Shown here: one piece after another, positions 17,806 to 38,324 of the stretch
Numbering within the stretch: the first letter of the stretch is position 1
Layout of the letters: each line of letters begins with the position of its first letter
From: Fragilariopsis cylindrus CCMP1102
Taxonomy: Eukaryota; Bacillariophyta; Bacillariophyceae; Bacillariales; Bacillariaceae
Direction: 5' to 3'
NCBI GenBank assembly: GCA_900095095.1
Contig: FMBT01000430.1
Coordinates: 1 to 64,000, forward strand
Length of the DNA stretch: 64,000 nucleotides
The notes under the pieces: model-generated
The model's database searches: none
Seen by the model: only the letters and a program-made list of their open reading frames with translations
Told to the model about the DNA's origin: nothing
Program-made: the position numbers and the translations under genes

Positions 17806-17815
17806 ATTAAAACCT
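17806..17815. repeat. Left target-site duplication
   Basis: ATTAAAACCT, identical to 38315-38324. If the terminal repeat is taken to start TGAG instead of GAG, the duplication is 8 bp; either length fits MULE insertion (8-11 bp). Confidence 0.85.
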
Positions 17816-17978
17816 GAGAATGTTCAGTTTGATGCACCTTCACCCTCTGGGTGTTCAATCCTATGCACACAGTCATTGCTGTTATTAAAATAGTCATCTT
17901 GATCGCGTAACCGGTCATTTATCAGTCATTTTATGTCAAAACCGTTAAAACCTGTTCAATCCTATGAACACACGTGCT
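17816..17978 (+). repeat. Left terminal inverted repeat
   Basis: The first 61 bp match the right repeat with about 7 mismatches. Similarity continues with gaps to CACACGTGCT at 17969-17978. It contains the hairpin CACCCTCTGGGTG and a second, partial copy of the GTTCAATCCTATG motif near 17954, which makes it longer than the right repeat. Confidence 0.85.
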
Positions 17979-18145
17979 CAAATAGGTGGTATCTTCATAT
18001 CTGTATATAAAGCATTAATTTAAATAGGCGATTGGCTCCAACCTTGTTTTTTTGGAGGATCGTCCTTTTGGATTGTCCTTTGCCAATCCCTTAAATTTCT
18101 CACAAATACAAATGTATTATTATTCTTATCCCAACTTCTAATCCG

Positions 18146-18955
18146 ATGAGTATTCCGATCAACGACATTCTTCGTGTTGCGCCTGGTAACGACCATATAC
18201 AATTCAGATGCGACATTCATCGTTTATCCCGTTCGAGGAAGCATCCAATGTACATACTAGACACACCCTCTCGTCTACAAGAAACACCGACTTTGCACAT
18301 CATTGGCGCTTCCGGTAACGGCTACGAACTTCATGTTACTCCCACCTCCATTTCTTGTACGTGCCCTGATCAGCATCAAGCTTGCAAGCACATTCTCTTC
18401 ATTTTACATCAAACAATGGCCGTTTTTCGCCAAGGCAAAGATCTGATCATCCACCCACCCACACTTATAGAGAAGATAAACCACGGAAAAACGCTACAAA
18501 CAAAGTACTTATCGCCGTTGGCCAACAGCTTATGCGTGTGTATACAGAATACAAACTGCCAACCATGCGGTCTACCATTGTCAGAAAACGTAACTATTTG
18601 CTCGAGATGTCCAAATGCGCACCACACCAAATGCGCTGGTAGCATTCCACCGTCTTGCCTATGTTCCCACAAAACTTACAAAGGTTTGAAATCTACTATT
18701 ACGAATGGCTATCGCAACTATTCCTCCATTTTCCAACATTTTTCGTATCCTCTCAGAGACCCAAACCGGAAAGTGATCAGACGTCCTCCTCATCCTCGCA
18801 ATCGCTTAGTACAACCACGATTAGTACGACCACCTCGCATCGATTTCCAACCCGATTCTCATCGATCCTCTACTTTGGTTCCAGAATCTCCCATATCTGC
18901 TAACCAACGTAAAACCGTTTGCAACCAACGCAACCAACAAGTTCACCAGTTATAG
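18146..18955 (+). CDS. SWIM zinc-finger plus RING-like protein of the element
   Basis: 269 residues from ATG 18146; a TATATAAAG box at about 18003-18011 lies ~140 bp upstream. A SWIM finger C-x-C-x6-C-x-H is formed by C71, C73, C80 and H82. A RING/PHD-like cross-brace follows: C138-C141-C152-C155-H160-C163-C171-C173. The C-terminus is Arg/Pro-rich and basic. SWIM fingers normally sit at the C-terminus of MULE transposases, where they help bind DNA. Here the transposase at the other end lacks one, so this may be the detached DNA-binding subunit. The RING-like part could bind an E2 or SUMO machinery, fitting the Ulp1 domain of the transposase, but its activity is unproven. Confidence 0.75.
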   Translation: MSIPINDILRVAPGNDHIQFRCDIHRLSRSRKHPMYILDTPSRLQETPTLHIIGASGNGYELHVTPTSISCTCPDQHQACKHILFILHQTMAVFRQGKDLIIHPPTLIEKINHGKTLQTKYLSPLANSLCVCIQNTNCQPCGLPLSENVTICSRCPNAHHTKCAGSIPPSCLCSHKTYKGLKSTITNGYRNYSSIFQHFSYPLRDPNRKVIRRPPHPRNRLVQPRLVRPPRIDFQPDSHRSSTLVPESPISANQRKTVCNQRNQQVHQL

Positions 18956-19766: not shown

Positions 19767-20429
19767 TTAACGAGCAGCGCGACGATTGGCAATGACAACA
19801 CGACCAGCTTCTGACGCAGCTTCAAAGGCCACCACATCACGATCACGTCGAGTACCAGATACAGGCAAAATATGCGCAAGCCTAGGACCCAATTGGTATT
19901 GGAGCTCCCCTTCGAATCGGAACTTATGTAGGTAGTTACGACTTACCAATCTTTTGACCGCATCACAAACAGTATTTCCTCCGTAAACTTGACCACAGAG
20001 CTCGTAAATCTCCCTGTAGCTAAGTGCTCCAAATCGAGCTACGTATTGCAAAATAAAACCTGCGTATTTACCAATATGACGTAGGCCGCCGCCCGTGGTT
20101 CGACATTTCCATTTGTCGATACCAGCATAAATGATAATTTGTCTGACCAAGTCATGATGAACAGCGTCGACACGAGATGCTGCTTCGGCGATGATAGTTA
20201 ACAAACCCTCGTCTCTCTCATACTTCTCAAGTGCATTGTTATATTGAAGAAATAGTTCTACAGAGGCGTCCACGTCCACTCTTCCATCCTCGTCGACGTC
20301 AACCAAGCTCTTGAATTCCTCATTCAGGTTAATTTTCCGAGTAGAGAGATCCAAACTTGCTAACCGGTTGTTTTCGTTCAAAGGAGAAGCAACAGGGCCT
20401 AGAACAGGAGTAAGCTCGGGATTCTGCAT
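19767..20429 (-). CDS. Winged-helix-like DNA-binding protein of the element
   Basis: 220 residues; the start is ATG 20429 (the codon before it is TTG). Residues ~115-185 read as a winged helix: a helix GKYAGFILQYVARFG, then LSYREIYELCGQVYGG, a recognition-like helix TVCDAVKRLVSRNYL and a beta wing HKFRFEGELQYQLG. The N-terminal half is acidic and helical (ELFLQYNNALEKYERD). Such proteins often act as regulators or subunits of recombination complexes. Nothing assigns a specific role. It diverges from the RPA-like gene across a ~700-bp shared promoter region. Confidence 0.6.
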   Translation of the reverse strand: MQNPELTPVLGPVASPLNENNRLASLDLSTRKINLNEEFKSLVDVDEDGRVDVDASVELFLQYNNALEKYERDEGLLTIIAEAASRVDAVHHDLVRQIIIYAGIDKWKCRTTGGGLRHIGKYAGFILQYVARFGALSYREIYELCGQVYGGNTVCDAVKRLVSRNYLHKFRFEGELQYQLGPRLAHILPVSGTRRDRDVVAFEAASEAGRVVIANRRAAR

Positions 20430-21134
20430 CAAAAAGGAAGTGAAGTGTTACAATACGTGGGGAATTTGGAAGTATTGTTTCGATTGAGGTTTGTACTGAA
20501 AACAATTTTATGAGCTAAATTGAACAACATTAAGCGTGGGTAATTGTCATCACACAAAATTAAACTGACAATTGAAAGCTGCACAATAAATTAGTTAGGC
20601 ATGGATAATCGTCATCACTCAAAATAACCATTTTTTTATACAGTGGGACACGCTAATCAATCATCATGGTTGGAGAAGTTGTTTGTCACTAACACAGCAA
20701 CAAATACAGTCCGAAACGGTTTTACTTTTCAGTAACGTAATTGGTTGTCGCAACACTATAATCCTAAACAGTTCAAATTTCAGTAACGTGGGAACACAAA
20801 ATAAATCTTCAAGTTCCGCGACAACAATTGGATTAAGATCAGTCGTGCACTTTGTGAATGGGAATGGGCATACAACTGGAACAGTTTCTACGCGCTATTT
20901 GTTATTGTGTCTTTATTTGTGAGATGAGTCGTGCACTTCTTGAATGTTCATGAAACTGGAACAGCTTCCTACGTGCTATTTGCTGTTGTGCTATTTGTGA
21001 TTTATGTGCTTATCTTATAACTGTTACTGTACTTAATAGAGAACTACATTTTGTCAATATTTCTATTCTCGTCACAAAATAACAACAAGTAATTTCTGTA
21101 TTCTAACCACATTACTAAAGCAGACAACTGAAAG
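20430..21134. promoter_or_regulatory. Divergent intergenic region, winged-helix / RPA-like genes
   Basis: Both flanking genes point outward, so both promoters lie here. A degenerate ~85-bp duplication is visible at about 20840-20915 and 20928-20995 (AGTCGTGCACTT, ACTGGAACAG, CGTGCTATTTG). A short frame at 20683-20922 is not protein-like. Confidence 0.45.
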
Positions 21135-22598
21135 ATGACACTAACCAACAACGGAGTATCTGTTCTCGTATACTCAAACACAATCGACGAACACAGTCAG
21201 ATTTCTTTTTCACCACCGATTGCGACATTCGAAGACAGCCAACTTTTGTTAACATCCAATGCTGTATCCAAATTAATGAAACCAACCTGTGATTATACTA
21301 TCAATATTCGACCAACTTGCCAGGTATTGAACATCAAAAAATTCAGCATGGAAACCGGTCCTGATCGTTACAAACTAATCCTGAGCGATGGATCTCATTT
21401 TGTACATGCAGTGCTTGCGTGTAAAGCAAACTGGATTGCAAGCAAACTTGACCCGAATGACATTGTTGAAATTGTACAATACAATTCTGTTACTACCAGC
21501 ACAGATAATATTATTTTCATCCAAGATTTGGTAATCAAACAATCTAACCTCGCGATTGTAGGCAACCCTTCTCTACTTGTACCTACCGAAGAAATCAAAT
21601 TAGATGCATACGATGATTTGAGCGTTGAACAAACCTCACCCACCCCTACTGCTACCTACATTCATCAAGAGCACACAATCATTGATGACTGGATCATTCT
21701 GACAAACGGGTCACTCCACGGAATTGTAAGAGAAGACAACATTCCGGATGGTCAAGGTTCTTCGACTATAACCACGTCTACTGTCGCATCTTTTTGTTTT
21801 CCGAGCTCTTTGACAATCAATTATGAATCAGATTTTGATTCCATCAACGTCCTAAATTGTGTAGTCACCATCACTGGATCCTGTTATCAACTGGGTTTCA
21901 AAAATGTCAGCTGTTATTGGGAAGAACATTTTAAGCATCATAAGAACAATCTAGCAGAATTGTCTTATTCACCAGAAAAGTTCCGAACCAAAATCGTTAC
22001 TGTTCATGATTATGCGTCACACGTATTCATGGGTACATTCGTTGATGAGGAATGGCATAACGGCAAACATGAAATGCTGGTGGAATTGGATATCGACTTA
22101 GAATGCGGTTCTGGAGTTGTTCGAGGTGATTGCGTTGTAGGATTGGACAGTCTCGCATACACTCAATCGCGCAGTTTGTATCGATTTCTCTATCCAGAGA
22201 CTGTTTCGCAAAGAGAAGGACCCCATGTAACTGGAGATCGAGTGGCTTTGATTATGTTTGGACAGCTCACGGAAAAGGGAATCACAGAGGATCGGGAAGA
22301 ATATTATCGCATCTCATTCGACGATTATTTCTCGTATCCAATTGAGGCGCAATTCCCCACAGAGGTTGTATCTTTTATGGTAGACTTATTTTCTAAGTTG
22401 CAACATGTTACTGGAGTTAGAAGGTCTGAATCAATTGGGCATTTGGCTGAATGTTTCCCTCCAATTGCAATTGGGCATATGGCGGAGCCTGCACTGCTAA
22501 AACGGCCATTGGTTCAAAACACGACCACCACCACCATCGACCAATCTCAGCAGGAGTGTATTCCTAAAAATAAAAAGGTAAAAGGTACGATTGTATGA
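21135..22598 (+). CDS. RPA70 N-terminal-like OB-fold protein
   Basis: 487 residues from ATG 21135. Residues ~38-150 align by eye along the length of the RPA1 N-terminal OB fold (DBD-F): LTSNAVSKLM, then RPTCQVLNIKKF, DRYKLILSDGSHFVHAVLA, NDIVEIVQYN, IFIQDLVI and AIVGNPSLL. In RPA this domain recruits checkpoint and repair partners. The remaining ~330 residues do not resemble the DNA-binding OB folds A-C and are unassigned. Plant Helitrons carry RPA-like genes, but I know of none in MULEs. It could recruit or mimic host RPA functions at single-stranded intermediates. It converges with the zinc-finger/oxygenase-like gene with a 107-bp gap. Confidence 0.75.
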   Translation: MTLTNNGVSVLVYSNTIDEHSQISFSPPIATFEDSQLLLTSNAVSKLMKPTCDYTINIRPTCQVLNIKKFSMETGPDRYKLILSDGSHFVHAVLACKANWIASKLDPNDIVEIVQYNSVTTSTDNIIFIQDLVIKQSNLAIVGNPSLLVPTEEIKLDAYDDLSVEQTSPTPTATYIHQEHTIIDDWIILTNGSLHGIVREDNIPDGQGSSTITTSTVASFCFPSSLTINYESDFDSINVLNCVVTITGSCYQLGFKNVSCYWEEHFKHHKNNLAELSYSPEKFRTKIVTVHDYASHVFMGTFVDEEWHNGKHEMLVELDIDLECGSGVVRGDCVVGLDSLAYTQSRSLYRFLYPETVSQREGPHVTGDRVALIMFGQLTEKGITEDREEYYRISFDDYFSYPIEAQFPTEVVSFMVDLFSKLQHVTGVRRSESIGHLAECFPPIAIGHMAEPALLKRPLVQNTTTTTIDQSQQECIPKNKKVKGTIV

Positions 22599-22705
22599 TT
22601 GTAGAGTAATAATATTTATCAGATGACCTTAGTGAAACAGTGAATGGTTCTAATTCTAGATATAGTGATGTATTTTATATATATGGATTTGATTTTGCTA
22701 TTATT

Positions 22706-24628
22706 TCAATCATCTTTTGCACCTTTTTCTTCATATAGATCATAGTTTGCTATCTCTTCAATCATTTTTTGCACGTTTTTGTTATTGGATTTATTGCTGG
22801 CACCAAATTTTGTAATCATTCTTTGAATATTTGGTAAGTGTGGATACGATTGTCCAAATTTTCTATATTCTCTACTACACAATTCGTATACATGATATAG
22901 CAATTGTACCATTTCCTTTTTTAATTTCTCGTTGTTGCAGTTATTAATCCACACTTCTTGGATGACTTCGATCATTACAGAAAACATTGTTTGCTGTACA
23001 TCCGGATCGTACATTTCTTTATCACCAACCGGTTTTCCACTCCAGAATAAGATACATCGTACTCGTTCTCCGACGACACCTGACCCGCTATGAACTACAC
23101 TTCCTTGGATTCTCGTATATGTTGCTGTAGGAGCGTGTTGAATGTACGCTCGTTCAAATTTTATGTTATCATTAGTTTGGGTTTCGTTGGGTTTAACCCT
23201 CATCTGGAATAGTTGACCAAATCCATCTTTCACAATCATCTTCCCAACTGACGTATCCGGTTGTATTTTTTTAATTTCTTTCATCAATTCATTGATTTTG
23301 TTTGTTTTATCTGTTACAATTTTTTCCGACTTCAGCATTGTGCAAAGAGAAGCCATGGAATTAACCTCTCCCACGTCCTTCTTTACCCTGTAGGCAATTG
23401 TTGTATCTACATCATTTGAAATGGTTAGAGCAAATTGGGAAAGTGGATGTACAAGATCAATGTGCTCTTGCTGATTTTTTTCACTTCTAGTCAGTATTAA
23501 CGAAAAAGAATCATAACTCATATAGTCATCTTTGGTTGTGTCAGCTTGCGCCGTTGACTTGGCAAATTTAACAATATCCACCATCCAGGATTCGTGGATT
23601 TTGTATTTTTTCTCGATCAGCTTCCAGCATTCATTGCCTCTTGTTTTAATCACCACACCATCGGCGTTAGTAACTTCTTCATTTGTTACACCTATTTCTT
23701 GCCTTTCACACTGAATGGAACGAGCTCCCCATTGATCTCGCTCTGCATCGCTATATACCTTTAATTTGGAATGTAAATCAGAGTCTGTCTTGGAATCAAT
23801 TGTCGTTCCAGCAGCTGTCGATTTCGAATCAACTAACTCCAGTATTTCCTCCCAATTTTTGTTCAAAATTATATCTATCCTCCTACAATAATTAATAATC
23901 TTGTATCTAATGCGTTCTTGTGAAGTATTTTGGCATTGTCCGGTCAACATTTCTTTGCTTGGAATGTTGTAGCAAAACTTCAAGTTGTCGACGCACCTAC
24001 TAAATCCGCACGAGTAACTATCTATTTTTACATTACATTCTTTTCCGTTCACCAGTCGTAGTGGTACGATTCTATCTAAGTCCACACAAATAGAACTAAC
24101 CGTCGGCAGTATGTTTTCTGTATATGTACATTCCTTAAAGTGTGCTTGTAAATTTCGGATCGATTCACTCGTTATTCCGCAAACGCAGGCGAACCCGTAC
24201 CGACATTCTTCAATCACCAAATACCGTTCGTCTTTGTACCAACCCAATCTTGGTATTTTTTTTGACGGGTTGCTGCCCAACTTTATATACTTCCTTTGTT
24301 TCTTGTTATTATCTGTGTGTGGATCATTTATTAAATGGTCTTCTATGTTGCGACCATCTTGAGTAGCCATCCCACATTTGTAACATACGTAGTACATGGT
24401 AGGTGTGCAATACGGTACTATCATGGTTTTCCCTTTTGATACCGGCTTGTATGCAACACGTGTAAAAAACCCAGCACTACCACTATTTCTACTAAACAAT
24501 TGAATTATTTTACGTTGATCGGTAATGGGCTCCACAAAATATTTTAATTTTGTTTTTTTTTTAGTTTGTTCTTCGTGATTGTTCTTTTCTTCCAGCTTCA
24601 CTTCCTCCTTATCCGCAGATTCTTCCAT
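22706..24628 (-). CDS. Zinc-finger protein with 2OG-Fe(II) oxygenase-like C-terminal half
   Basis: 640 residues from ATG 24628. The N-terminus is charged. A C2H2-like finger (C82, C85, H98, H104) and a second Cys/His cluster (C148, C150, H163, C167) suggest nucleic-acid binding. In the C-terminal half, QEHIDLVHPLSQFALTI gives an H389-x-D391 pair. GSVVHSGSGVVGERVRCILF gives a distal H513 with R524 eleven residues on. H-x-D...H...(10-11)...R is the metal and 2-oxoglutarate signature of the double-stranded beta-helix oxygenases (AlkB, JBP/TET, prolyl hydroxylases). The 122-residue gap is long but tolerated in TET-type domains. If right, it may oxidise DNA, RNA or a protein. The oxygenase call is inference from motif and spacing; the zinc clusters are directly visible. 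Confidence 0.55.
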   Translation of the reverse strand: MEESADKEEVKLEEKNNHEEQTKKKTKLKYFVEPITDQRKIIQLFSRNSGSAGFFTRVAYKPVSKGKTMIVPYCTPTMYYVCYKCGMATQDGRNIEDHLINDPHTDNNKKQRKYIKLGSNPSKKIPRLGWYKDERYLVIEECRYGFACVCGITSESIRNLQAHFKECTYTENILPTVSSICVDLDRIVPLRLVNGKECNVKIDSYSCGFSRCVDNLKFCYNIPSKEMLTGQCQNTSQERIRYKIINYCRRIDIILNKNWEEILELVDSKSTAAGTTIDSKTDSDLHSKLKVYSDAERDQWGARSIQCERQEIGVTNEEVTNADGVVIKTRGNECWKLIEKKYKIHESWMVDIVKFAKSTAQADTTKDDYMSYDSFSLILTRSEKNQQEHIDLVHPLSQFALTISNDVDTTIAYRVKKDVGEVNSMASLCTMLKSEKIVTDKTNKINELMKEIKKIQPDTSVGKMIVKDGFGQLFQMRVKPNETQTNDNIKFERAYIQHAPTATYTRIQGSVVHSGSGVVGERVRCILFWSGKPVGDKEMYDPDVQQTMFSVMIEVIQEVWINNCNNEKLKKEMVQLLYHVYELCSREYRKFGQSYPHLPNIQRMITKFGASNKSNNKNVQKMIEEIANYDLYEEKGAKDD

Positions 24629-25607
24629 TTTAATGTTAGGATGGTCAATAAAGAACCAACGTCAATAAGTAGTTATACTTTCCTACCCTACCTACTTGTA
24701 CTTATACCCTCTACACAACGATCGGCTTGTTGGTTCTTTCCTTGTCCAATCTTTTGTGGAAACGATGTGTTTGTCCATTGGCAAATGGTAAAATTAATTG
24801 CTTTGTTGTGTGCCGATTGGCGATGATTGTCAATTGTCAAAAACTCGCGCATAACCACTCAATAGTGAACTTGGCAAAATTACCATATCTGGACTTGACC
24901 AGTTTAACGCGAGAAAAAATGTCCAAAATCACGCGCAAAATTACCTGATTCCAGATAAGGCGTTTTAAGCAGAGTGCAAGGCAATTGTCAAAAAATCTCG
25001 CGCATAACCACTCAATGGTGAACTTGGCAAAATTACCATATCTGGATTTGACCAGTTTAACGCGAGAAAAAAAGTCCAAAATCACGCGCAAAATTACTTG
25101 ATTCCAGATAAGGCGTTTTAAGCAGAGTGCAAGGCAATTGTCAAAAAATCTCGCGCATAACCACTCAATAGTGAACTTGGCAAAATTACCATATCTGGAT
25201 TTGACCAGTTTAACGCGAGAAAAAATCCCGATACGTTACGCGTAACGTATCCTTCCAAATTCCCGCGCAAAATTACTCGATTCCTGATATCGTGATGTCA
25301 ACAACGGACACACATTTTACATTTGACCACAACTGACAATTTTCAGCATAGCATCATCTACTCCTATCGATGCAAATCGAAACGGAATCATCACGTTAGC
25401 TAAAAAGCGTTTCTCATTAGTCGTTTCTATTATTCGTAACCAACATACAGAACCATGCTACACAAAACCAGCATACATCGACAACGATGCATGTACAAAG
25501 CTTTCAATATTTCACTTTTCCACACAAACGTTCTGTCCATAACGTACACATAAATTCAACAATTCGACAAATCAATCCTCGAGTTTAAATACACACTAAC
25601 GATTACA
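24629..25607. promoter_or_regulatory. Divergent region with iteron-like array
   Basis: Lies between divergent genes (zinc-finger protein and unknown A) and must hold both promoters. 24831-25295 is occupied by the iteron-like repeats listed separately. 25300-25607 shows no further structure. Confidence 0.5.
24831..25295 (+). repeat. Iteron-like array, three ~152-bp units, left arm
   Basis: Units start with CAATTGTCAAAAA at 24831, 24982 and 25135. Each holds CTCGCGCATAACCACTCAAT, GTGAACTTGGCAAAATTACC, ATATCTGG-WTTGACCAG and TTAACGCGAGAAAAA. The core is thus bounded by the inverted heptamers CTCGCGC...CGCGAGA. The third unit differs after the core and contains the perfect 20-bp palindrome ATACGTTACGCGTAACGTAT at about 25229-25248. 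The array recurs in inverted orientation at 30.68-30.99 kb. Confidence 0.8.
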
Positions 25608-26618
25608 ATGAAAAGTCTATTCGGCTTCATGTCTCCTAAAAAGGCACCATCTCCTCCGATTGACCCACCTCCTCCGGTTGATCCATCGTACTATAATATG
25701 TTGGGTGCTTTACCAGTAGCGCAACAATTCATGGTCCTTGGACATATCAAGCGATTGTATTCCGGGCTTGCCGCGGCTGGTACAACAACCTACGCCGCTG
25801 CTAGTGGAACAATGACTCCGGTAGCAACCGCACAAACGAGCATCGTCGGGGTCACACCTGAATCGGATCGTAACGTAAGACGTCGACTCGACTTTGCTCC
25901 ACCCAACGAGGCGGCACTCGACGCAATGTTATCGAAAAAGGACGAGTATGGAATCCACCACATTGTCGGCAATGCGCTTATCAACCACTATCTAAAAAAG
26001 TATTCTTCACCCACGATCGAGGTCGTCGTGAAGGAATTGAGTACCGGACCGCACCCGTATTACAAATTCAACGCAATGCAGCTGCTATACACAGTATTCC
26101 AGATGACGAAGGCTACGGACGCTGTCATCAGTAGTGTCAACACACAATTCGCTAACCATATTCCGATTAACAGCGGTACCAACATGCCAGCAGACGACGT
26201 TATACGTTTCCTCAATAACAACGGCGTTAAAACGTGGGAGGTTCCAAAGATGACTTACGAAGCCCTATTGTCAGTTAACCACACGAAACCGATCATCATC
26301 GAGTATTGCGCGACAAGACACAAATTCGAGGATGAGGATGGCCCCCATTATTGGCCCATTTTCTGCATTTTATTCAGAAAGGAACGACTCCTTCTCCCTT
26401 TCAACGATACCAGTGCCGGTCTTATTCTTGGTTCCCAATTCTTGGAGCAAGATTGGGACCGAAAAGGTTTCGAAAACTATGTAAAGACTTGCCTGCACAA
26501 CAAGATTTGTCCTGTTGTTGACAATAAAGCTAGAAAGACTCAATCAAGCGTTATCCGCGAATTGAAATACCTCAAGGCGTGGACTATCGCTGCCAAAACT
26601 GGGACTAGGGTTGGTTAA
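25608..26618 (+). CDS. Unknown element protein A (paralog of protein B)
   Basis: 336 residues from ATG 25608, intronless, with noticeably more C/G-ended codons than host genes. A Pro-rich N-terminus precedes LPVAQQFMVLGHIKRLYSG and a disordered linker. The C-terminal ~190 residues form a conserved domain: IHHIVGNALINHYLKK, FLNNNGVKTWEVPKMTYEAL, PHYWPIFCILFRKERLLLPFN and FENYVKTCLHNKICPV. The same blocks in the same order occur in protein B (29092-30192), so the two are diverged paralogs. The HYW...LLLPFND part vaguely recalls the His/Asp region of papain-like or Ulp1-like folds, but no catalytic Cys is evident. Function unknown. Both genes lie between inverted iteron arrays. Confidence 0.7.
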   Translation: MKSLFGFMSPKKAPSPPIDPPPPVDPSYYNMLGALPVAQQFMVLGHIKRLYSGLAAAGTTTYAAASGTMTPVATAQTSIVGVTPESDRNVRRRLDFAPPNEAALDAMLSKKDEYGIHHIVGNALINHYLKKYSSPTIEVVVKELSTGPHPYYKFNAMQLLYTVFQMTKATDAVISSVNTQFANHIPINSGTNMPADDVIRFLNNNGVKTWEVPKMTYEALLSVNHTKPIIIEYCATRHKFEDEDGPHYWPIFCILFRKERLLLPFNDTSAGLILGSQFLEQDWDRKGFENYVKTCLHNKICPVVDNKARKTQSSVIRELKYLKAWTIAAKTGTRVG

Positions 26619-26642
26619 ACATACAATCCATCAATACAATTG

Positions 26643-26803
26643 TGAGCACTGATCCTTCGACAGACTCACTATACAATACGTTACATACAATCCGTGAGCA
26701 CCGATCCTTCGACAGACTCACTATACAATACATTACATACGATCCGTGAGCACTGATCCTCCGACAGACTCACTATACAATAACAATACATACATTCCGT
26801 GAG
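26643..26803 (+). repeat. Tandem ~52-bp repeats with stem-loops after gene A
   Basis: Units start at about 26643, 26694 and 26746, with a partial fourth at 26799: GTGAGCACTGATCCTYCGAC followed by AGACTCACTATACAATA. GTGAG and CTCAC can pair in each unit, giving a row of hairpins 25 bp after the stop. Possible 3'-end or insulating element. Confidence 0.65.
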
Positions 26804-27561
26804 CGTACATACAAATACGTCCCACTATACTACAACTGACATCATCTATATCCGATCATGCCAACTAAATAACTGGCATCATCTATACCCGACTATGCCG
26901 ACTAACATACAAACAATGTATAATACTAACTATATAAGAATTTCAAAAAAAAACAAAAAAAAAACTTTTCTTTTCTTTTCTTTTTATCCGGCTGGCCTGC
27001 CACTATATTTACATGGCGGCTACGAACTCACCGATTACTGGTACAAACACCATCAACCGGCTCATTATAGTCGCAGCCCATTAGTGGCGGTGTTAGGAGC
27101 ATCGCGCTTCCTGCAACGATCGCAATTTCGGGATCCCCAAACCCGAATACCGAAATGCAATCTCTACAGTAATCACTCACTATCTCTCTAGCAGCTTAGT
27201 TAACCTGTACTAAACAAAGTATTCATAGGACCATAGGTAGATCACATAGCTAGAAATAGTGCCTCCAGCACATGCCATGCATTCTGTAGGAGCAGACCAG
27301 CCGAGACGGCGCACGTGAATTGGGCGAAGTAGATTCTCCAGTGCAAGACTCCAGGCAACAGGCAACGGAAGGACAATCACAGTCCGTCCGTTTACCCCGA
27401 ACCACGCTTGAAGATTCGCGCCGTTACCAACGAAGCATACGAGTAGGATACGTAGATAAGATTCGTAGATGACAACTGCGCAATATAGTAAAAAACGCAA
27501 GCAGCAAACTACTGTTGCTGCGACAGCAAACACGCGCACTTCTAGTAGATTACGAGACGCA

Positions 27562-27895
27562 AATACTAGTAGATTACAAGGTAAGGCGAATCCTACGACG
27601 AGAAGGTTTCTATAGGGGCGATAACGAAACTAAACAATGGAACGAGTGAGTTTACGTTCCGTCGTCTGATTTCCCTATCCTTCCTCTCTTGGCGATTCTG
27701 CTTTGCCGGATCGTCATCTACGAATCTTATCTACGTATCACGAGTGAGTTTACGTTCCGTCGTCTGATTTCCCTATCCTTCCTCTCTTGGCGATTCTGCT
27801 TTGCCGGATCGTCATCTACGAATCTTATCTAGTAGATTACAAGGTAAGGCGAATCCTACGACGAGAAAGATTCTATAGGGGCGATAACGAAACTG
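27562..27895. repeat. Nested duplication A-B-B-A
   Basis: Block B (~95 bp, starting CGAGTGAGTTTACGTTCCGT) occurs in tandem at 27643 and 27741, nearly identical. It is flanked by direct copies of block A (AGTAGATTACAAGGTAAGGC to GGGGCGATAACGAAACT) at about 27566-27632 and 27831-27893. The near identity points to recent rearrangement. Confidence 0.75.
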
Positions 27896-29091: not shown

Positions 29092-30192
29092 ATGGATCTG
29101 TACAAAGTTTTCAAAGAATTACCAACTGCTACCCAACTGGAGTATATTCTAGACATGCACGATGCATTAACACAGCCGTGTAAGGATAGCTGGTTACAAG
29201 TAACCCTTGAACAACCATCGTGTAGTAATAAAGTTGCCCGTACGATGCTCAACAGTGCACCAGAAAAATGTTACGTTGAGTTGGCAACTACATTCATGGG
29301 CCACCTATCTAGAGAAGAACAACGTGAAACGTTTAACAAGATTAATAATTTTGACGGCGCTACCACAAGTATCACCGGCGCTACCAAAAGTACCCCCATC
29401 CCACCAACACCAACACCACCATTGGCGAAATCTAACGAAACAGGTGGGATGAGCAACGAATTCTGTTACAGTCGTGATAAGGTAACTATCGAAGATGGTG
29501 GTGCTGGTACTGACGTTGAATCTGAGTTTGATGATTATTCAGATCTCAAAAAAGACCCCTCATTTGCTAATTTCGGAACTATACCACTATATGACAAAAA
29601 AGAAACTGAAGCGGAACTCACGGGAGTAAAGATTAGTACGCAGGTTAGTAAATCGGACCAACATTATATCGGGTTCAACATGGTTTATGTTCTCGTGTCA
29701 ATCCTACAATATTTGAATATTATGTCGGGCTGGGTTTTTTCAGATACAGTCGAAACTGATGTGGCGAAAATCACCAATCGTACAATGACCGCAAATTTGA
29801 AAAAATACAACGTAAAATATCACCGAATCAAAAATAAATCGTTCGAACAAATCTTATTGGGCAATTCCTACCTGGGAGAACTCATCCTCTTTGTATTCAA
29901 GGTCACAAGAAATGGGGCAGAAAATGAAGAAAAGTCAATCCCGGAAAATTGGTATCATTTCTGCCTCTTTTTTCAATCAACCAGGGTTTTATTAACGTTC
30001 AACCAAGAACAAACAAACTACAAACTTGGTAATATCTGCAATATAAAAGCAGCTGAAAACAAGTTCCAAGATTATATGAATAATTTGTTGAACAAAAAAA
30101 TCGTCCCAGTAATGATTCCAGGAAAGAAGCGCCCCCGCTATTCCCAATTAAGAAAAATGGTTTTCTGTGAGGCATTAGTTATTAAAAAATAG
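29092..30192 (+). CDS. Unknown element protein B (paralog of protein A)
   Basis: 366 residues from ATG 29092 in a CCATGG context. The N-terminus (LPTATQLEYILDMHDALTQ) mirrors LPVAQQFMVLGHIKRLYSG of protein A. A Pro/Thr linker and acidic patch (DVESEFDDYSDLKKD) follow. The C-terminal domain has YIGFNMVYVLVSILQYLN, LKKYNVKYHRIKNKSFEQIL, ENWYHFCLFFQSTRVLLTFN and FQDYMNNLLNKKIVPV, block for block as in A. Overall identity looks low, so the duplication is old and both copies stayed open, which argues for distinct selected roles. Function unknown. The 3' flank carries the repeat shared with the winged-helix gene. Confidence 0.7.
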   Translation: MDLYKVFKELPTATQLEYILDMHDALTQPCKDSWLQVTLEQPSCSNKVARTMLNSAPEKCYVELATTFMGHLSREEQRETFNKINNFDGATTSITGATKSTPIPPTPTPPLAKSNETGGMSNEFCYSRDKVTIEDGGAGTDVESEFDDYSDLKKDPSFANFGTIPLYDKKETEAELTGVKISTQVSKSDQHYIGFNMVYVLVSILQYLNIMSGWVFSDTVETDVAKITNRTMTANLKKYNVKYHRIKNKSFEQILLGNSYLGELILFVFKVTRNGAENEEKSIPENWYHFCLFFQSTRVLLTFNQEQTNYKLGNICNIKAAENKFQDYMNNLLNKKIVPVMIPGKKRPRYSQLRKMVFCEALVIKK

Positions 30193-30674: not shown

Positions 30675-30990
30675 TACAGAATTTTGGCCAAGTTCACTAT
30701 TGCCTAGAACTTTCTGGTCAATTCCAGATATGGTAATTTTGCCAAGTTCACTATTGAGTAGTAGTTATGCGCGAGATATTGACAATTTTGACAATTGACT
30801 GAAACTTGGCTAAAATGCCGTACAATTGTATCAGGAATCGAGTAATTTTGCGCGTGAATTTGGAAGGATACGTTACGCGTAACGTATTGGGATTTTTTCC
30901 CACGTTAAACTGGTCAAATCCAGATATGGTGGTTTTGCCAAAGTTCACTATCGAGTAGTTATGCGCGAGTTTTTGACAATCCTAATACTA
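30675..30990 (-). repeat. Iteron-like array, right (inverted) arm
   Basis: The reverse complement gives two units with CTCGCGCATAACTACTC, TAGTGAACTT-GGCAAAA, ATATCTGG and TTGACCAG, plus a partial third. One unit carries the same palindrome ATACGTTACGCGTAACGTAT at about 30869-30888 and the same downstream GCGCAAAATTACTCGATTCC. It mirrors 24.83-25.30 kb, so the two arms enclose about 6.1 kb holding genes A and B and the small basic gene. Confidence 0.78.
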
Positions 30991-31103: not shown

Positions 31104-31929
31104 TTATTTCATAAAACGACGCATTGTTTGCCAATGTTTGCGATGCTTTGCTTTTCTAGCTCGCATAGCTTCATTAATTCTACGCATAGCTTGACGTTCT
31201 TGACGTTGCTCTTGAAGTTTCCTTTGATCATCTTCTTCCTGCTCCATATCCTCTTTTTTTTAAAGCACGGACAACACCAGACTGACCCTGACCATAGTCT
31301 GTTGCCTGAGTATGCCTTTGCATGAACACCAGGATAGCGCCGATAGAACAAAATTCCAAATAAGGCAATGACACACTTTACAACTATTATCCCCATGAAA
31401 TTTGTCATTATCAGCAAGACGATTCGCCGATTGAAAATCTGTATATCCACCACCACGATCATATGCCCGTTCTGCTGTCGATGAAGACTCCGGAAACAAT
31501 CTCCGTGGGGCACTAATATTCTCATTCTCCTTTGATTCCACCAACTGACTCTGAGTGGTAGAATCACCCATTGCCCAACTTATTTTGAGTTCTTCCCTGA
31601 TTTGTAGCACATGTCTTTTCAATACGCTGTCTGTTGCGATCTGCTAAATAAACACCATCAACAGAACCATGATGCAGAGTATATTCGTTGAAATCACGGT
31701 ATACCTCTAATTTGGAAGTAGAAATGGATTTACTTCCATGTTCAGTGATGGCAATTTTTGCATTTTTAGTAATGGGAGTCGATATGCCTAAATCAATGCC
31801 CTCTTCTGAAATGGATAGGATCCGGAAAGGGACGACTTTTCTGAGCCCCAACCTGCGAACATAAGTTGTATTGTGTCGTCTGCGTGTAAGTCGACCATTT
31901 TTTTGGTTTTTTTGCATCATGACTATCAT
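31104..31929 (-). pseudogene. Broken frame downstream of the transposase
   Basis: Starts with ATG 31929, overlapping the transposase stop as ATGA, and reads 121 residues (RRRHNTTYVRRLGLRKVVPF, VDGVYLADRNRQ). Protein-like sequence then continues in other frames: SQLVESKENENISAPRRLFP near 31,530, and at the end a charged coil EDMEQEEDDQRKLQEQRQER stopping at TAA 31104. The coil lies just past an 8-T run at 31254-31261 where one indel would change frame. Either this is a decayed gene or C-terminal extension, or it uses introns I could not place. A basic, coiled-coil product would fit DNA or transposase binding. Confidence 0.4.
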
Positions 31930-34900
31930 CGGGATTCTTCTGGGGGACTAAAAGAATATGTTGAGGAATTGGAGGACTCAGAACCTAAACTGTGAGGCAA
32001 CTGTTTCCTTTTAGGGGAAGCCACCTTTTTTTCTTCTTTTTCGTTCGTTACAATCGGTGGTTGCTTTGGATGGGAATTTTTATACTCTACCTGTTCCAGG
32101 TGGAAAGCTGCAACATATTCTCTGTGCCTCGGTTGACCTCTTTTGATACGGATTGTTAATGGACGTTTTGATGACTTGAGAAACTTGGTTGCGTCCTTTA
32201 CATTTGGGTTTCCTGCTGAACCTGAAGCATGGAAACCTGTACCTTCTGCTGAAATCAAAACATCACCTGGAAAACATTCATCCTTATGATCATTTGAAAC
32301 AGCCGCAATAATAATTTCGCAAGTAGTTGGAACAGCTATTATATACAATCCTAAATTTTGTGCCTTAAAAACAACATCATGTGTAATTTCTTCATCATTG
32401 GAACTACGACAGCTACTACTACTGTTTTTTTTGGTTTTGTTAGCAGTTGATTCGTCGTTAATGTTTGATTTGTTATCTGAATTGTCTGACTCCGGTTTGT
32501 TAGCAGTTGATTCGTCGTTAATGTTTGATTTGTTATCTGAATTGTCTGACTCCGGTTCTTCCGGGTTAACACGGGAACTTAAATCATACCTAGATGTGAT
32601 AGTAAAAGCGACCTCATCGTTAGAGAAATCTGATAGAGTTGTACGCCGCGGAATTGAACGATTGGCAGGTGAACGATGCCCGGGTGGTAAAGTTGTGGTT
32701 GTGCGGATTTCCTTTTCAAGTATGGAATCCTTAATTTCCACTCGGCGTTGCGGATTCTCCAAAAATGAAGTGGTGTAATCCAATTGGCGTCCTTCAGACT
32801 TGAAAAGTGCAATCAGGCAAACAGAAACTCCACAATCGTGATAGTTCGATTGCTGCGGACATAATCCATCACGAATGGTCCATGTGTTGATATCAAAAGG
32901 TAATCGAAGAGATTTTGTGAGGTCCTCCATCATGTATAGCAAAGCCAATCCAAATTTCTTCAACATTCGTTGGTCTCGTTGGTCGTCGTCGCCCATCATA
33001 CTGTCGAATATATCGATTCGGCATTTTGTCGGATGGATACAGCACAATATCCAATGGGATTGGTCGACGTTGATTGGAATGTATATAACTTCGGCATTTA
33101 AAAAGTTTTTGTTTTTAATCTCTTTATGAACCTGTTGGTAGTTGTAACTGTCGTTACGAAATCCCAATAGTTTGACTATAAAGTATGTGGGCTGGAATAT
33201 AACAAGATTCTTATCTCTTACAAGATTCTTATCTTTTTCCTTCCTCCGTAGGACAAATAAATAAGAAGATATAACAATGTCGTTCAGCCATACACCCGGT
33301 TTCAAGGTCTTTAAGTCACTATCAGTGACTACCAATAGCCTCTCAAATTGCAATTCCCTCCGTTCCATGCGACCAATCGCAGATGGGGATCCCGATTGTC
33401 GTTTTAATTTCGCCGTTACTTCTGTATCATCAACATCATCTTCGTCTTCATCTTCGTCTTCATCTTTGTCTTCATCTTCATCTCCATCTTCATCTTCATC
33501 TTCATCTTCAACTTGTGAAAAGAGGCACAAAATACCCTTACTTTGTTCCACATCATCCTCGCACAAGTCTATTACTTCTGCTACACCAGCAGCTGCAGCA
33601 GCACGTTCAGGATGGAACTTTGCGAGTGTACGACGCTCAATATACTCGATAAATTTTGTTGTCCCATGCTTTTTTGCCAAACGGAAAACAGTTTCCGAAA
33701 TTTTTCCTTTATTGAGGAGCAAATAGGCGTTCAAAGCTTCCCTCGACTTATCAGCAAGTTTGAAGTTAGATAGCATAACCCACTCCGTCTCAGAAAGGGA
33801 TGTTTGTGAACCAAAAGGCACTGTTAGTGCATTATATGGACCGCAACCAATCGTCTTGTTCTCTAGCAGCAATGCATCCAAGATATTGGCTCGATTGAAA
33901 TCTGTATCGTCATAGGTATCAACGAAGTCATCTTCGGTGTTGACTTTAGCATTGTTTATAAGCCATTCTGCCATAGCAAATTGTTTATTGATGGGTACCT
34001 TACAGGCGATGGTTTCGTCGGAAATATCTTTCACTTGTCGGGCGAATTTTTTCTTAAGAAACTTCATGGACATGTTTTCATCAGGCTTGCCTTGTACATA
34101 TTTTATAACTTTTTTTTTTTGTTCCGCTTCGTCAGATTTCGGATCCTCTTCGGGACGGTAGGATAGGAACATACGACTGTTGAGGTCTTTAGACGATACG
34201 GCAGACAACTCCGTGGGTTTTTTGTCAAGCCTAAGCCGACTATCTGGATTCTCATCCTGTACCGAGTAGACCAAATACTTTCCAGTTACAATCATCTTCG
34301 GTTTTACTACACCCTCCCCTTGTGAATACATTGCAGAACATTGGTTATAAGTATGGCCAGGTAGATTACAATTGCCGCACAAACGCTGTCCGGCTTTTCC
34401 TAAATTAGATTCCAGAATTGATTGAGATAACTCTGGATCGTGCACAAATTCACGACTTGCGACTTTCGCAGCCTTGCCAAACTCTCCAATCGGTGCGCTT
34501 ACCTTCACGCTTTCTGTATGACAATTAGCAAATTTTTGTTTTTTTGGTTGTTTGTTGTTTTCGTGTCCATGAGCCTTTGTTTTTTTTTTGGAAGCACCAG
34601 TCTCGCCCGTTGACGTATAACGATACCCCCTCTCTATTATTGCCCTGTATTGAGGAGGTCCTTTGCAATATGGTTCGACTACAGGGTATTTATTCACAAG
34701 ATCTTGTGTAGGAATACGAACCTTTAGAACGCACGAAGCACTCAATATCAATTCCAGGTTTCGTTTGGATAAAAAACATCTTGGATAAAATTCATCCGGT
34801 AATTCACCTTTTATTACCTCCCGTTTGTGGTGTTGTGGGAACCTATCATCAAACTCTGCTGCATTCTGAGCAAGGCGGAGGATACAGTGACATGGAAATT

Positions 34901-37862
34901 TCACCATTGCGGAATTCAATACACAAAAATTGCACAAGTGAGTATAGGCAGGATCAAATTTTTGATTCTTGTAATTTTGATTCTTGTAATCCTCTATGTT
35001 TGGATATTGCCAGTTCAATTCAACGTCATATTGGCGACCATCTATGCTCTTGAAATTACCCACTATAGCAGCTTCACGCATGGTATTGTTGGTCATTTCT
35101 GCATCCGAAGCAAACGAATGAGTACTGCTGCCGTCGTCGTCGGACGCCACGTCGGATCCCCTAGCATATTCATCATCCGATGCAAAACTTTCATCTTCCT
35201 GATCAATTTGAATGTTTTCTGCACTTTGCGACCTCACACTTTCACCATCGGAATCAAGTCTAGGTCTACTGAGTGGATTGAGCGCTGGCGGTTGTGTTGG
35301 TGAAAATGAAAAACCAACATTAGTGTCGAGATCATCGCCAGCTACGGTTTCTTCCTCAGTATTGGTGGTCGTTTGGGATGTTGGAAATGTACCAAGGCCA
35401 CCAGCTGGATAAATATCAGCAGGTATCCCAGCCTGACTAGACTGGGACTGGGACTGTGTTTGTTGCGGTATATATCCACTACTATCTACGCATGAACCAT
35501 GTGAACTCACATCATCGTTACTAGAAAGTAATTCCAAGGCACATCCCTGATTAGATGATTCGTGCGAACCATCAACAGATGTATTATTGTTCGCAACTCC
35601 AGCTCCACTGAAGTTTAGATAGGCCGGATCAAAAACAAAACCACGATCAATAGCTACTGCCCTCAACCTTGCACCAGTTGTCGTATAGCTCGCTGTACGC
35701 CCCATACGCACTAAATCGAGCTTAAGTTGATCAATCTGATGGTTGTATTGTTTAAGGATGATAGGAATCCCTATGGGTGGGGGTTCGTATCTGAATCCAC
35801 AAAAAAGAAAACTGGCCCCCTGCGATTCCGCAGTATTTGTTCTTGCTAAATGAAACCGTGGACATGGTCCTTGTTTCCTGTGAATGAAATTGTGGAACTT
35901 GTGGAGAAAATCATCAGTATTCTTCTGCGCCGATGCTCGGCATTCAAGTAGAAATTTGCCGGCATGTTCCATTTCCATATGCTCATTCGAACGGAAATTC
36001 AGATTGATGAATAAAGACGAGAACAAGGATGGTAGTATATAATTCCGGAGGTAATGTATATAATGACCATGGTCGAATTTTGGTGCATTGGCAAATACGG
36101 TCCAAAGACCTGGATGCAATCGGAGAATATATAGCACCAAAGTAATGTATAAATGACGATTTTTACCAGGACAACTAGTGATCTTGAGGTGCAGATAGTC
36201 AAAAATAAGCTTGAAAAAAGTCAATTGGTCCTCGCAGAAACTGGCGGCATTCATCATGGAACGAAATAATTTCTTTTCTTCTTCAAAAGCGAACAAAACC
36301 GTAAACCCATCTTGTATATTCCGAAATATGTGCTGCAAGCACAGCATAACGTAGAAATTCACCAGGAATTCCAAATTCAATGAATTCATGGCAGACAGGA
36401 ATGGACCTTGGTCGGTAAAAATTGCATCTTCAAGATGCATACCATGGCGCCAGCACATCTGTACCAGCCAGCAAATATGACCAGCAGATTCGCTCGGTAT
36501 ATAGGCAATTGCCTCGATCACCGTTCGTCCAAACCCAGTTCTGGAAGCAAATAAGAATATTCTTCCGCTGTACATTTTGCTCTTGGAGTGGAAGCAATCC
36601 ACAATGTAGGGGGGTTGAGTGAGAACTCCGTGGTATTTGGCAATCGGAAAACCATGGAACCATCTGCAAAATCGATGCTCGCTATCCACCTGCAGTGCTA
36701 CAGAAACAGTTTCCACGTTGCACTGGTATAGGGTTTGAAGAAAGCGCGGAAGATATTTGTACTCCTCTGAAATTAGGTGGCATAGGTAATTTGTGACGGA
36801 AGCCAAAATATTGGAGTAAGAAGTTTTTTTAAATGCGACAATTTGATTTAAGTCAGCAAGTTTATCTTTTATGTCTTGAAAAGTGTAGTCCTTCGTTAAA
36901 GGATGCATAGCTTTCCTGATCCAACGTTGATATGTGGGCATAGTAGCTAAGAGCGCCGGTTCTATAGGCGTAGAACGACGATCGCACGTACAAGTGGTAC
37001 CAAACGTGTGGAACAACTTCGTCACTTCTTTGTTAATGATTATAACTTGTTTACCATATGTTAGGTCGAGAGTAAAGTCCCTTAAGTTGCCTCTTATCTT
37101 TCTATCGACTGATTTCATCTTAAGCCGGTACTCCCCGCACATACATTGATAGACTCGTTGGTGATGTTCAAGTTTATAAGATTTCATTAACGGAATTTGA
37201 TGAATGTGAAACGCAATACAATGACAAAACAATGATGTCTGCAATGCATTGATTTTAAGAGTACAGAGGTCTCTTAATGAGGCACCAGATGGAAAAAGAA
37301 TAGGCTTGTATACGGTTTTTTTTGGGTTCCCGTCATCATCAATTTCCATATCATATATTTCCGAAGAATCACCTAATACCAAAGTGTTGTCTTCAGAATT
37401 GGCAAACCCCGGGTCCGCACGAGAAGTGGGGAGGACAAAGTTGCCGATGTGGTCGTCGTTGGTGTAATCCTCAGCGCGTGGTTGGTTGTTGTCCTCAGCC
37501 ATTGTAGACTCAGTATTTGTATCCGTTGCAATCTCTGCTAGCAACTCTGCTCTTAACTCTGCTAGTACGAACTCGCCCTCAGCCATAGTAGACTCAGTAG
37601 TATCTGTTACAACCTCTGCTGCGTCGTCATTGTTCGGTAATGGTGCTTTTTCTTGCCGCCAATACTCATCACCTCCCTCTTGCTGCCTCGTAATGTACTG
37701 AGTAGAAACTGGATTCTGCATATGTTCCAACTGGGACATCTCATTAGGTGGAATGGAAGATTGAGTAGAAGAAGAATTCACTCTCCTTTGCGTTGATTTT
37801 GTGGAGGACCAATTGTTGTCCGCCGAAGCAGCAACCTGGTGGAGTTGGTGGTTTGGTTCCAT
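31926..37862 (-). CDS. MULE-type transposase fused to Ulp1 protease and PDZ-like domain
   Basis: 1978 residues, one exon, from ATG 37862. Residues ~1-190 are disordered. A MULE-like DDE core follows: D422 (YIVDCFH), D484 (FTDQG), the C-x2-H motif CLQHIFRN near 510, and E679 (RTNTAESQG). The 195-residue D-E gap is longer than usual. Next come a Ser/Asp-rich linker, a CCHC knuckle CGNCNLPGHTYNQC near 1162-1175, and an E/D-rich run. A C48 Ulp1-type protease holds WLND, H1603 (QSHW), D1620 (IFDSM) and C1677 with its preceding Gln (PQQSNYHDCGV), all catalytic positions intact. A 20-residue DNSDNKSN-type duplication and a PDZ-like domain (~1830-1905, LGLYIIAVP, GDVLISAEGTG, RPLTIRIKRG) end the protein. 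Expected role: cutting and joining element ends, and removing or processing SUMO/NEDD8-type modifiers. No SWIM finger is present. Confidence 0.82.
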   Translation of the reverse strand: MEPNHQLHQVAASADNNWSSTKSTQRRVNSSSTQSSIPPNEMSQLEHMQNPVSTQYITRQQEGGDEYWRQEKAPLPNNDDAAEVVTDTTESTMAEGEFVLAELRAELLAEIATDTNTESTMAEDNNQPRAEDYTNDDHIGNFVLPTSRADPGFANSEDNTLVLGDSSEIYDMEIDDDGNPKKTVYKPILFPSGASLRDLCTLKINALQTSLFCHCIAFHIHQIPLMKSYKLEHHQRVYQCMCGEYRLKMKSVDRKIRGNLRDFTLDLTYGKQVIIINKEVTKLFHTFGTTCTCDRRSTPIEPALLATMPTYQRWIRKAMHPLTKDYTFQDIKDKLADLNQIVAFKKTSYSNILASVTNYLCHLISEEYKYLPRFLQTLYQCNVETVSVALQVDSEHRFCRWFHGFPIAKYHGVLTQPPYIVDCFHSKSKMYSGRIFLFASRTGFGRTVIEAIAYIPSESAGHICWLVQMCWRHGMHLEDAIFTDQGPFLSAMNSLNLEFLVNFYVMLCLQHIFRNIQDGFTVLFAFEEEKKLFRSMMNAASFCEDQLTFFKLIFDYLHLKITSCPGKNRHLYITLVLYILRLHPGLWTVFANAPKFDHGHYIHYLRNYILPSLFSSLFINLNFRSNEHMEMEHAGKFLLECRASAQKNTDDFLHKFHNFIHRKQGPCPRFHLARTNTAESQGASFLFCGFRYEPPPIGIPIILKQYNHQIDQLKLDLVRMGRTASYTTTGARLRAVAIDRGFVFDPAYLNFSGAGVANNNTSVDGSHESSNQGCALELLSSNDDVSSHGSCVDSSGYIPQQTQSQSQSSQAGIPADIYPAGGLGTFPTSQTTTNTEEETVAGDDLDTNVGFSFSPTQPPALNPLSRPRLDSDGESVRSQSAENIQIDQEDESFASDDEYARGSDVASDDDGSSTHSFASDAEMTNNTMREAAIVGNFKSIDGRQYDVELNWQYPNIEDYKNQNYKNQKFDPAYTHLCNFCVLNSAMVKFPCHCILRLAQNAAEFDDRFPQHHKREVIKGELPDEFYPRCFLSKRNLELILSASCVLKVRIPTQDLVNKYPVVEPYCKGPPQYRAIIERGYRYTSTGETGASKKKTKAHGHENNKQPKKQKFANCHTESVKVSAPIGEFGKAAKVASREFVHDPELSQSILESNLGKAGQRLCGNCNLPGHTYNQCSAMYSQGEGVVKPKMIVTGKYLVYSVQDENPDSRLRLDKKPTELSAVSSKDLNSRMFLSYRPEEDPKSDEAEQKKKVIKYVQGKPDENMSMKFLKKKFARQVKDISDETIACKVPINKQFAMAEWLINNAKVNTEDDFVDTYDDTDFNRANILDALLLENKTIGCGPYNALTVPFGSQTSLSETEWVMLSNFKLADKSREALNAYLLLNKGKISETVFRLAKKHGTTKFIEYIERRTLAKFHPERAAAAAGVAEVIDLCEDDVEQSKGILCLFSQVEDEDEDEDGDEDEDKDEDEDEDEDDVDDTEVTAKLKRQSGSPSAIGRMERRELQFERLLVVTDSDLKTLKPGVWLNDIVISSYLFVLRRKEKDKNLVRDKNLVIFQPTYFIVKLLGFRNDSYNYQQVHKEIKNKNFLNAEVIYIPINVDQSHWILCCIHPTKCRIDIFDSMMGDDDQRDQRMLKKFGLALLYMMEDLTKSLRLPFDINTWTIRDGLCPQQSNYHDCGVSVCLIALFKSEGRQLDYTTSFLENPQRRVEIKDSILEKEIRTTTTLPPGHRSPANRSIPRRTTLSDFSNDEVAFTITSRYDLSSRVNPEEPESDNSDNKSNINDESTANKPESDNSDNKSNINDESTANKTKKNSSSSCRSSNDEEITHDVVFKAQNLGLYIIAVPTTCEIIIAAVSNDHKDECFPGDVLISAEGTGFHASGSAGNPNVKDATKFLKSSKRPLTIRIKRGQPRHREYVAAFHLEQVEYKNSHPKQPPIVTNEKEEKKVASPKRKQLPHSLGSESSNSSTYSFSPPEESR

Positions 37863-38202
37863 GTTGTGTACCGTCCCTATTCAATGAAGAAACGTCAGAT
37901 ATGCAAACGTAGGAGGTTTTAAAGAGTGTCTCCCTCAGCTTATTTTTGCTTAGTATATTTATGTGCTTGTAAGTGCAATGAAGAAGATATCAAAATTTAG
38001 ATCAGTGAGATGAATCGAACGTGTAGAATGAGTTTGAGTGACAATTGGGGATTGACGATTGTAGCGAGCATTGGAATAAAGGATCGGATCGCTGTTAGCA
38101 TTGGATCTGCGCGCCAAGCAGATTGTGAAAATAACGGTTGAATACGGAATAGATAGAGAATATGAGGCAAGATAAAGCAAGAAGACTATTACATAGGAAG
38201 AT
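37863..38202 (-). promoter_or_regulatory. Transposase promoter/leader region
   Basis: Lies between transposase ATG and right terminal repeat; no gene. As in other MULEs the terminal repeat probably contributes promoter activity. I see no TATA box I would defend. Confidence 0.4.
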
Positions 38203-38314
38203 AGCACGTGTGGGGGCATGTGGAAAATGACCAAGATGACTATTTTGATAAGGATGACTGTGTGCATAAGATTGAACACCCAGAGGGTGATAGGGCATCA
38301 GACTGGACATCCTC
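38203..38314 (-). repeat. Right terminal inverted repeat
   Basis: Read inward from 38314 it gives GAGGATGTCCAGTCTGATGC, the CACCCTCTGGGTG hairpin, TTCAATCTTATGCACACAGT, AAAATAGTCATCTTG and finally CACACGTGCT, all in the same order as at the left end but in 112 instead of 163 bp. Confidence 0.85.
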
Positions 38315-38324
38315 ATTAAAACCT
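38315..38324. repeat. Right target-site duplication
   Basis: ATTAAAACCT, identical to 17806-17815. It lies 417 bp before the ubiquilin ATG. Confidence 0.85.

Follow-up and report, generated by a model that had tools for sequence, protein, structure and literature searches.

Background

Mutator-like elements (MULEs) are characterized by terminal inverted repeats (TIRs), target-site duplications of 8-11 bp (PMC6446971), a DDE transposase core and SWIM or CCHC zinc fingers (PMC6446971, PMC9168764). MULEs are regarded as small. Group 37 of PMC6446971, a diatom group with a single gene, is given with one open reading frame (ORF) and a duplication that is none or not indicated, and barley Hvu_Abermu is 8,176 bp long with three ORFs (PMC9168764). 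Here we analysed a window of 64,000 nucleotides from the diatom Fragilariopsis cylindrus CCMP1102 (assembly GCA_900095095.1, contig FMBT01000430.1, positions 1 to 64,000) and describe within it a 20,499-bp element (17816-38314) that resembles MULEs in these traits, its core being DDE-like, but differs from group 37 and Hvu_Abermu in belonging to a set of elements of 20.5-49.5 kb with at least four common genes. The element is likely a giant DNA transposon of Mutator-like type with several genes, and this diatom genome has at least four complete insertions in that size range, the window's included.

Several other described systems share part of this design. The Kaonashi/KIU elements of plants are also of Mutator type and carry a Ulp1 protease domain, but those of Arabidopsis are non-TIR elements with Ulp1 in a separate gene (PMC13317346), whereas the element described here has TIRs and a Ulp1 domain fused C-terminally to the transposase. 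Pack-MULEs likewise carry other sequence between Mutator ends, but those first reported were all 7 kb or less (PMC6431247). Pack-MULEs are moved in trans and contain gene fragments, whereas the elements here are larger and have their own transposase. Algae also have giant DNA transposons of 10 to >30 kb with extra genes, namely the KDZ, EnSpm and Sola-1 elements of Ectocarpus, in which nested insertions occur as well (PMC12477816), and the CACTA elements of Chondrus, of 16-20 kb with 4-5 ORFs (cited in PMC6431247); these belong to other transposase superfamilies, and no giant MULE was seen among them. The initial annotation of this locus had suspected that a giant multi-gene MULE was undescribed, and none was listed when we searched an open-access full-text library, with most subscription papers and bioRxiv outside that coverage.

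Ends, target duplication and insertion site

The element is located between two copies of the 10-mer ATTAAAACCT (17806-17815 and 38315-38324, plus strand), which stand in the same orientation and abut the TIRs; no third copy is present on either strand of the window. The duplication is exactly 10 bp long, as the bases beyond the two copies differ. The left TIR (17816-17876, plus strand, 61 bp) pairs with the right TIR (38254-38314, minus strand) with 7 mismatches, and gapped similarity continues inward, which confirms both the imperfect 61-bp repeats and the shared flanking 10-mer of the initial annotation. When the 500-bp ends of the element were aligned in inverted orientation, they scored 115, a value reached by 5 of 1929 random pairs of 500-bp windows (next best, 66) in a window that has other long inverted repeats, and the probability of two given 10-mers matching by chance at the window's base composition is ~1.7e-6. 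A unit bounded by TIRs and a 10-bp duplication at 17816-38314 is real.

The insertion site lies inside a short dispersed repeat. In an empty-site comparison, 10 copies of this host repeat (9 of the 35 rows starting at the junction, plus the copy on contig C738) were aligned to the joined flanks, and eight of them (L042-L045, L047-L050) gave good alignments to the left and right of the junction, holding a single version of the 10-mer where the window has two. Related empty sites, which the initial annotation had proposed to look for, are present, although their 10-mer is diverged from that of the window. One of the other two copies extends only 5 bases beyond the junction (L046) and the other matches one flank only (L051).

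A search of the assembly with the element ends had also been proposed, and the left end does recur, at 95% identity over 200 bp on contig C587 and at 91% over ~128 bp on contig C63; a second element end was not found by blastn in the stretches of these two contigs that were read. A 77-bp segment 96% identical to the inner right end lies 33 kb downstream on the contig of the window (C86:71515-71591; L040 7515-7591). In addition, C63:200600-221400 is a rearranged block, 83-85% identical to window positions 38422-47604 and 50259-56909, from which the element is absent. We considered this block as an empty site and rejected it: only the right flank aligns (from ~38422), the left side is rearranged and the junction is not demonstrable. 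Its sequence suggests either an older segmental duplicate or a homeologous region.

Related giant elements in the same genome

The assembly (67.9 Mb, 818 contigs) gives 27 matches to the silicon-transporter family, each of them above the cut-off, which point to a diatom as the most likely source, although silicon transporters are present in a few other protists as well. We then searched this assembly with the proteins of the window element (transposase, RPA-like, C2H2 and SWIM/RING), and the further full-length elements sought by the initial annotation were found in this way, each with its own TIRs and 10-bp duplication. The transposase detected its core (residues ~295-741 or 345-741) on contigs C83, C306, C154 and C529 at 31-38% identity. 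Complete elements were delimited on three of these: 29,614 bp on C83 (295232-324845; TIRs of 63 bp with 3 mismatches, duplication GATGTTAAAC), 49,501 bp on C306 (85790-135290; 63 bp with 3 mismatches, TATCTCGCAT) and 29,361 bp on C529 (52019-81379; 72 bp with 2 mismatches, CAGAAAATAC). C154 was left out of the count: its 40-bp flank at that end is shared with C306, and it is a duplicate contig of the C306 insertion. All four elements, including that of the window, are flanked by a perfect 10-bp duplication whose sequence differs at each site.

The four loci also share their gene content, with the order SWIM/RING, RPA-like, C2H2 and transposase at each; SWIM/RING and RPA-like share one strand, C2H2 and transposase the opposite one. 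Starting exactly at the transposase-side repeat, the C83 and C306 elements match at 99.7% across 4,769 bp, and they are near-identical over 450 columns at the opposite end, with differing flanks. Because these near-identical ends stand at different sites, the sequences indicate that the C83/C306 family has moved recently. Comparison of the TIRs of the three families (window, C83/C306 and C529) revealed no meaningful similarity.

The transposase-Ulp1 protein and its placement

The transposase is encoded by an open frame of 1984 residues on the minus strand (31926-37862; 1978 residues from the first ATG), beginning ~0.43 kb from the right end of the element; residue numbers follow P0001, which starts six residues ahead of the ATG. 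It comprises a predicted N-terminal zinc DNA-binding region, a DDE-like core (D428/D490/C514..H517/E685), a CCHC knuckle (1168-1181) and a Ulp1 domain detected as Peptidase_C48 over residues 1530-1703 (Pfam, E=8.8e-22), in which H1609, D1626, Q1677 and C1683 are in place, the residues named for the core and for Ulp1 being those taken as catalytic. All four knuckle residues are found in 8 of 9 aligned proteins, while P0010 is without the histidine. Among 5.8 billion proteins, one search returned nine transposase relatives and a profile search restricted to proteins of ~300-950 residues returned two. PF02902 is in the same chain in seven of the nine, and is missing from P0004 and from P0002 (1257 aa only, identical to the window protein over the searched part).

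Regarding superfamily placement, PF10551 (MULE) was the only transposase-core family matched, by 5 of 6 core sequences (best E=0.0012), and its match on the window core spans the D-D region. Among solved structures, ISCth4 of the IS256 family was the top fold match of the core in two programs (Foldseek and VIA-align), with an identity of ~9-11%. IS256-family elements are short, single-gene and bacterial. A eukaryotic Mutator structure was not among the VIA-align matches listed, which is not evidence against Mutator, and searching PDB sequences with a profile of the core gave nothing relevant. The elements further show the traits of MULEs: a duplication within the 8-11 bp range (10 bp at each of the four complete insertions), TIRs in all four, and a zinc motif in the form of the transposase CCHC knuckle, the SWIM match of a separate gene being sub-threshold. 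From the weak MULE profile matches, the ISCth4 fold match and the 10-bp duplications, we consider the transposase probably Mutator/IS256-like. The end-proximal position given in the initial annotation holds, and its MULE label is the best placement, resting on these weak matches and the duplication length.

Three observations concern sequences related to parts of this protein. An ordinary MULE is present at C69:41293 and C299:317734 (L060, L061); its single frame encodes 933 aa, passes the PF10551 cut-off and, judged by eye, includes a SWIM-like motif. A DnaJ-Ulp1 gene of this diatom (L056 on C670, L057 on C158) encodes a Ulp1 domain that is 56-74% identical to those of P0007-P0009 and 40% identical to that of the window protein; the likeness of P0007-P0009 could reflect an exchange of Ulp1 with host genes. 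Finally, the C-terminal part of the transposase at window positions 32139-32423, PDZ-like by eye only, matches an ankyrin-repeat host protein on C91 (L058) at 45% over 93 residues (DNA 79-82%, in two pieces), and is possibly a captured host fragment.

Other genes of the element

Nine frames of the element were scanned with Pfam profiles (E 0.1) and seven of its proteins with NCBIfam profiles. The RPA70N-like gene (21135-22598, plus strand; 487 aa from the ATG at 21135) has a Rep-A_N match (Pfam, E=2.4e-9) that exceeds the cut-off and bears out the RPA-like gene initially proposed. Its predicted structure resembles human RPA70N (E=1.9e-6) in the RPA70N part, the only part used in a model with a whole-model mean pLDDT of 47.1. 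Copies are present in the C83 and C306 elements (91% identity) and in the C529 element (32%), two further weak matches were found at C83:244872 and C85:3164, and 11 other database records exist beside the window's own cluster. That cluster (P0011) is listed on four contigs, the longest of 3.2 Mb; this exceeds the contigs of the present assembly that we saw, and the element family is probably also contained in another, more complete assembly.

The SWIM/RING gene (18146-18955, plus strand, 269 aa) matched both domains that the initial annotation had named, but each scored below its Pfam cut-off (SWIM, E=0.0013, 18.7 bits against 19.6; RING_16, E=0.012, 15.7 bits against 27.4). Its homologues are found on C587 (96% identity, without other element genes) and in the C83, C306 and C529 elements (30-32%). 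The C2H2-type zinc-finger gene (22706-24628, minus strand, 640 aa) has a C2H2 profile match of E=0.0025 (18.8 bits; cut-off 30), and its homologues lie near the RPA-like gene on C529 (54-65%, two internal stops), C83 (45%) and C306 (39-53%, in pieces). The 220-aa frame at 19767-20429 (minus strand) had been labelled winged-helix, a label dropped here as no Pfam, NCBIfam or PDB-sequence match was obtained. An oxygenase-like gene was similarly discarded: the nine frames gave no Pfam match and the seven proteins no NCBIfam match of that kind.

Alternative explanations

Several results weigh against a giant Mutator-like transposon with a fused transposase-Ulp1 protein. For the Mutator placement, no listed PF10551 score reaches the Pfam cut-off of 27.6 bits, the window core scores better with the unrelated MASE8 (E=0.0074) than with MULE (E=0.026), Foldseek gave no core match at E 0.001 or better on a core model of low confidence (mean pLDDT 59.5), and an hhalign comparison with the genome's ordinary MULE was not significant (probability 0.3 of 100). 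For the fusion, transposase and Ulp1 in one open frame are known, among the four elements, only in the window copy: a stop codon separates the two frames on C83 (Ulp1 E=4.3e-8), in the part of C306 that was read, similarity to C83 ends short of the Ulp1 domain, and on C529 Ulp1 is a remnant just below the cut-off in another frame. The C529 transposase also carries N in place of the second conserved aspartate, and the enzyme is on this account probably dead. With respect to the shared genes, the C83, C306 and C529 interiors were read in part, so that four common genes are a lower bound; the dN/dS of the SWIM/RING gene between the window and C587 (0.71 on 17 changes) is uninformative; and the RPA-like proteins of the window and C83 are 91% identical against 33-36% for the transposases, which may point to exchange of the RPA-like gene between elements but could also reflect strong constraint.

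The unreached MULE gathering score, the better MASE8 score, the few relatives in the protein databases and the lack of a significant alignment to the ordinary MULE would also be expected if the element were a giant transposon built in this way but with a transposase of a different or new DDE superfamily. We regard this as unlikely, given that PF10551 was the sole transposase-core family and was matched by 5 of 6 members with the D-D region covered in the window, that ISCth4 was the best fold in both programs, and that the 10-bp duplications fall within the MULE range (PMC6446971). KDZ in particular is disfavoured by its duplications of 7 or 8 bp (PMC12730594), against 10 bp here, and with HMMER filters on and E up to 10 no KDZ profile was listed for any of the six members.

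The isolated left-end copies on C587 and C63, where blastn found no second end in the stretches read, could fit a chance bracket, in which two copies of a small non-autonomous repeat came to flank ordinary host genes and mobilized them on one later occasion. Such an event would not repeat, however, whereas the same genes in the same order are found in four insertions with three unrelated inverted-repeat sequences, and we consider it very improbable. Reading the unit as an integrated DNA virus or as a Polinton/Maverick-like element appears equally far-fetched, despite its large size and several genes and although a bracovirus protein, itself uncharacterised, was the best match among predicted viral structures (E=1.3e-3, prob 0.96; no match reached E 0.001). 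Bracovirus DNA can itself contain transposons. Polinton/Maverick elements have DNA polymerase B, a retroviral-type integrase and a 6-bp duplication, while no capsid, polymerase B, packaging or integrase profile was detected in the nine window-element frames (E 0.1), the duplications are of 10 bp, and transposase relatives were absent in 2 of 2 viral-contig scans.

Proposed mechanism and significance

For the giant Mutator-like transposon that we favour, the N-terminal zinc domain of the transposase would bind the TIRs and the DDE core would cut, so that the whole unit could be inserted with a 10-bp stagger; movement by the fused transposase may proceed by cut-and-paste or gap-repair transposition. 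The accessory proteins might help so large an element to move and persist: the RPA70N-like protein could bring repair and replication factors to single-stranded DNA or the excision gap, the Ulp1 domain could strip SUMO from host silencing or repair factors, and the SWIM/RING and C2H2 proteins may bind or regulate element DNA. Element size, the common toolkit and recent movement are well supported by the sequences and the Mutator label is probable, while these helper roles are proposals.

A broader reading, which we put forward tentatively and rate at somewhat below even, is that these elements form a distinct class of eukaryotic giant elements in which a SUMO protease is joined to a divergent Mutator transposase, the toolkit of RPA70N mimic, SWIM/RING and C2H2 proteins is fixed, genes are swapped among elements and with the host, and cargo varies up to ~50 kb. 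The class would be a Mutator-based counterpart, in marine diatoms, of fungal Starships. Starships themselves have a tyrosine recombinase captain gene, and no tyrosine recombinase profile was detected in the nine window-element frames at E 0.1.

A review of giant transposons reports that transposition efficiency falls with cargo above ~6 kb and that artificial systems have moved 100-200 kb (PMC6431247). Against the small size of known MULEs, the four units of 20-50 kb have clean ends and two of them are near-identical at both ends, which indicates that a Mutator-type system can move far more in nature. The RPA70N mimic, the SUMO protease and the zinc-finger proteins are candidate helpers of large-element movement, through which the size limit of DNA transposition becomes testable, and the elements may offer a route for carrying host genes in diatoms.

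Interior segment and further repeats

The initial annotation had treated the whole 20.5 kb as one unit, but the idea that all of it is ancestral is not supported for the segment at ~25.1-31.0 kb, which looks nested or like shared cargo. Inverted repeats of its own, 152-153 bp long, edge this segment (left, 25137-25289, plus strand; right, 30829-30980, minus strand, an inverted copy of the left), with extra tandem units out to 24833 at the left edge and inward from 30687 at the right. It contains gene G5 (25608-26618, plus strand, 336 aa), within a 2.2-kb multicopy repeat (25264/25289-27468), and gene G6 (29092-30192, plus strand, 366 aa), a distant relative of G5 (26% over 191 aa). The G5 repeat is present in at least 10 further places at 94-97% DNA identity over ~2.2 kb (40 of 55 candidates scored). 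Given its own inverted repeats and the multicopy 2.2-kb repeat, the segment can be read as a nested insertion. It may instead be shared cargo and not a nested transposon, since no target duplication was seen at its edges and the other G5 copies are without its ends, their similarity to the window starting only at 25264/25289, the inner edge of the nested repeat. On balance, the arrangement points to a composite, with reasonable though not high confidence, in which an ancestral Mutator-like unit of ~14-15 kb received a nested insertion of ~6 kb (24833/25137-30980) carrying G5 and G6, and this is compatible with a giant Mutator-like transposon.

Two further repeat patterns were observed. On contigs C342, C265, C84 and C773, the repeat at 25264-27717 occurs ~8 kb from a 132-bp partial copy, a pattern that hints at a second large repeat family. 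In the window itself, ~189-bp tandem repeats of one family form two clusters, with an inverted related sequence in a third (9590-10570, 57200-58610 and 61770-62300).
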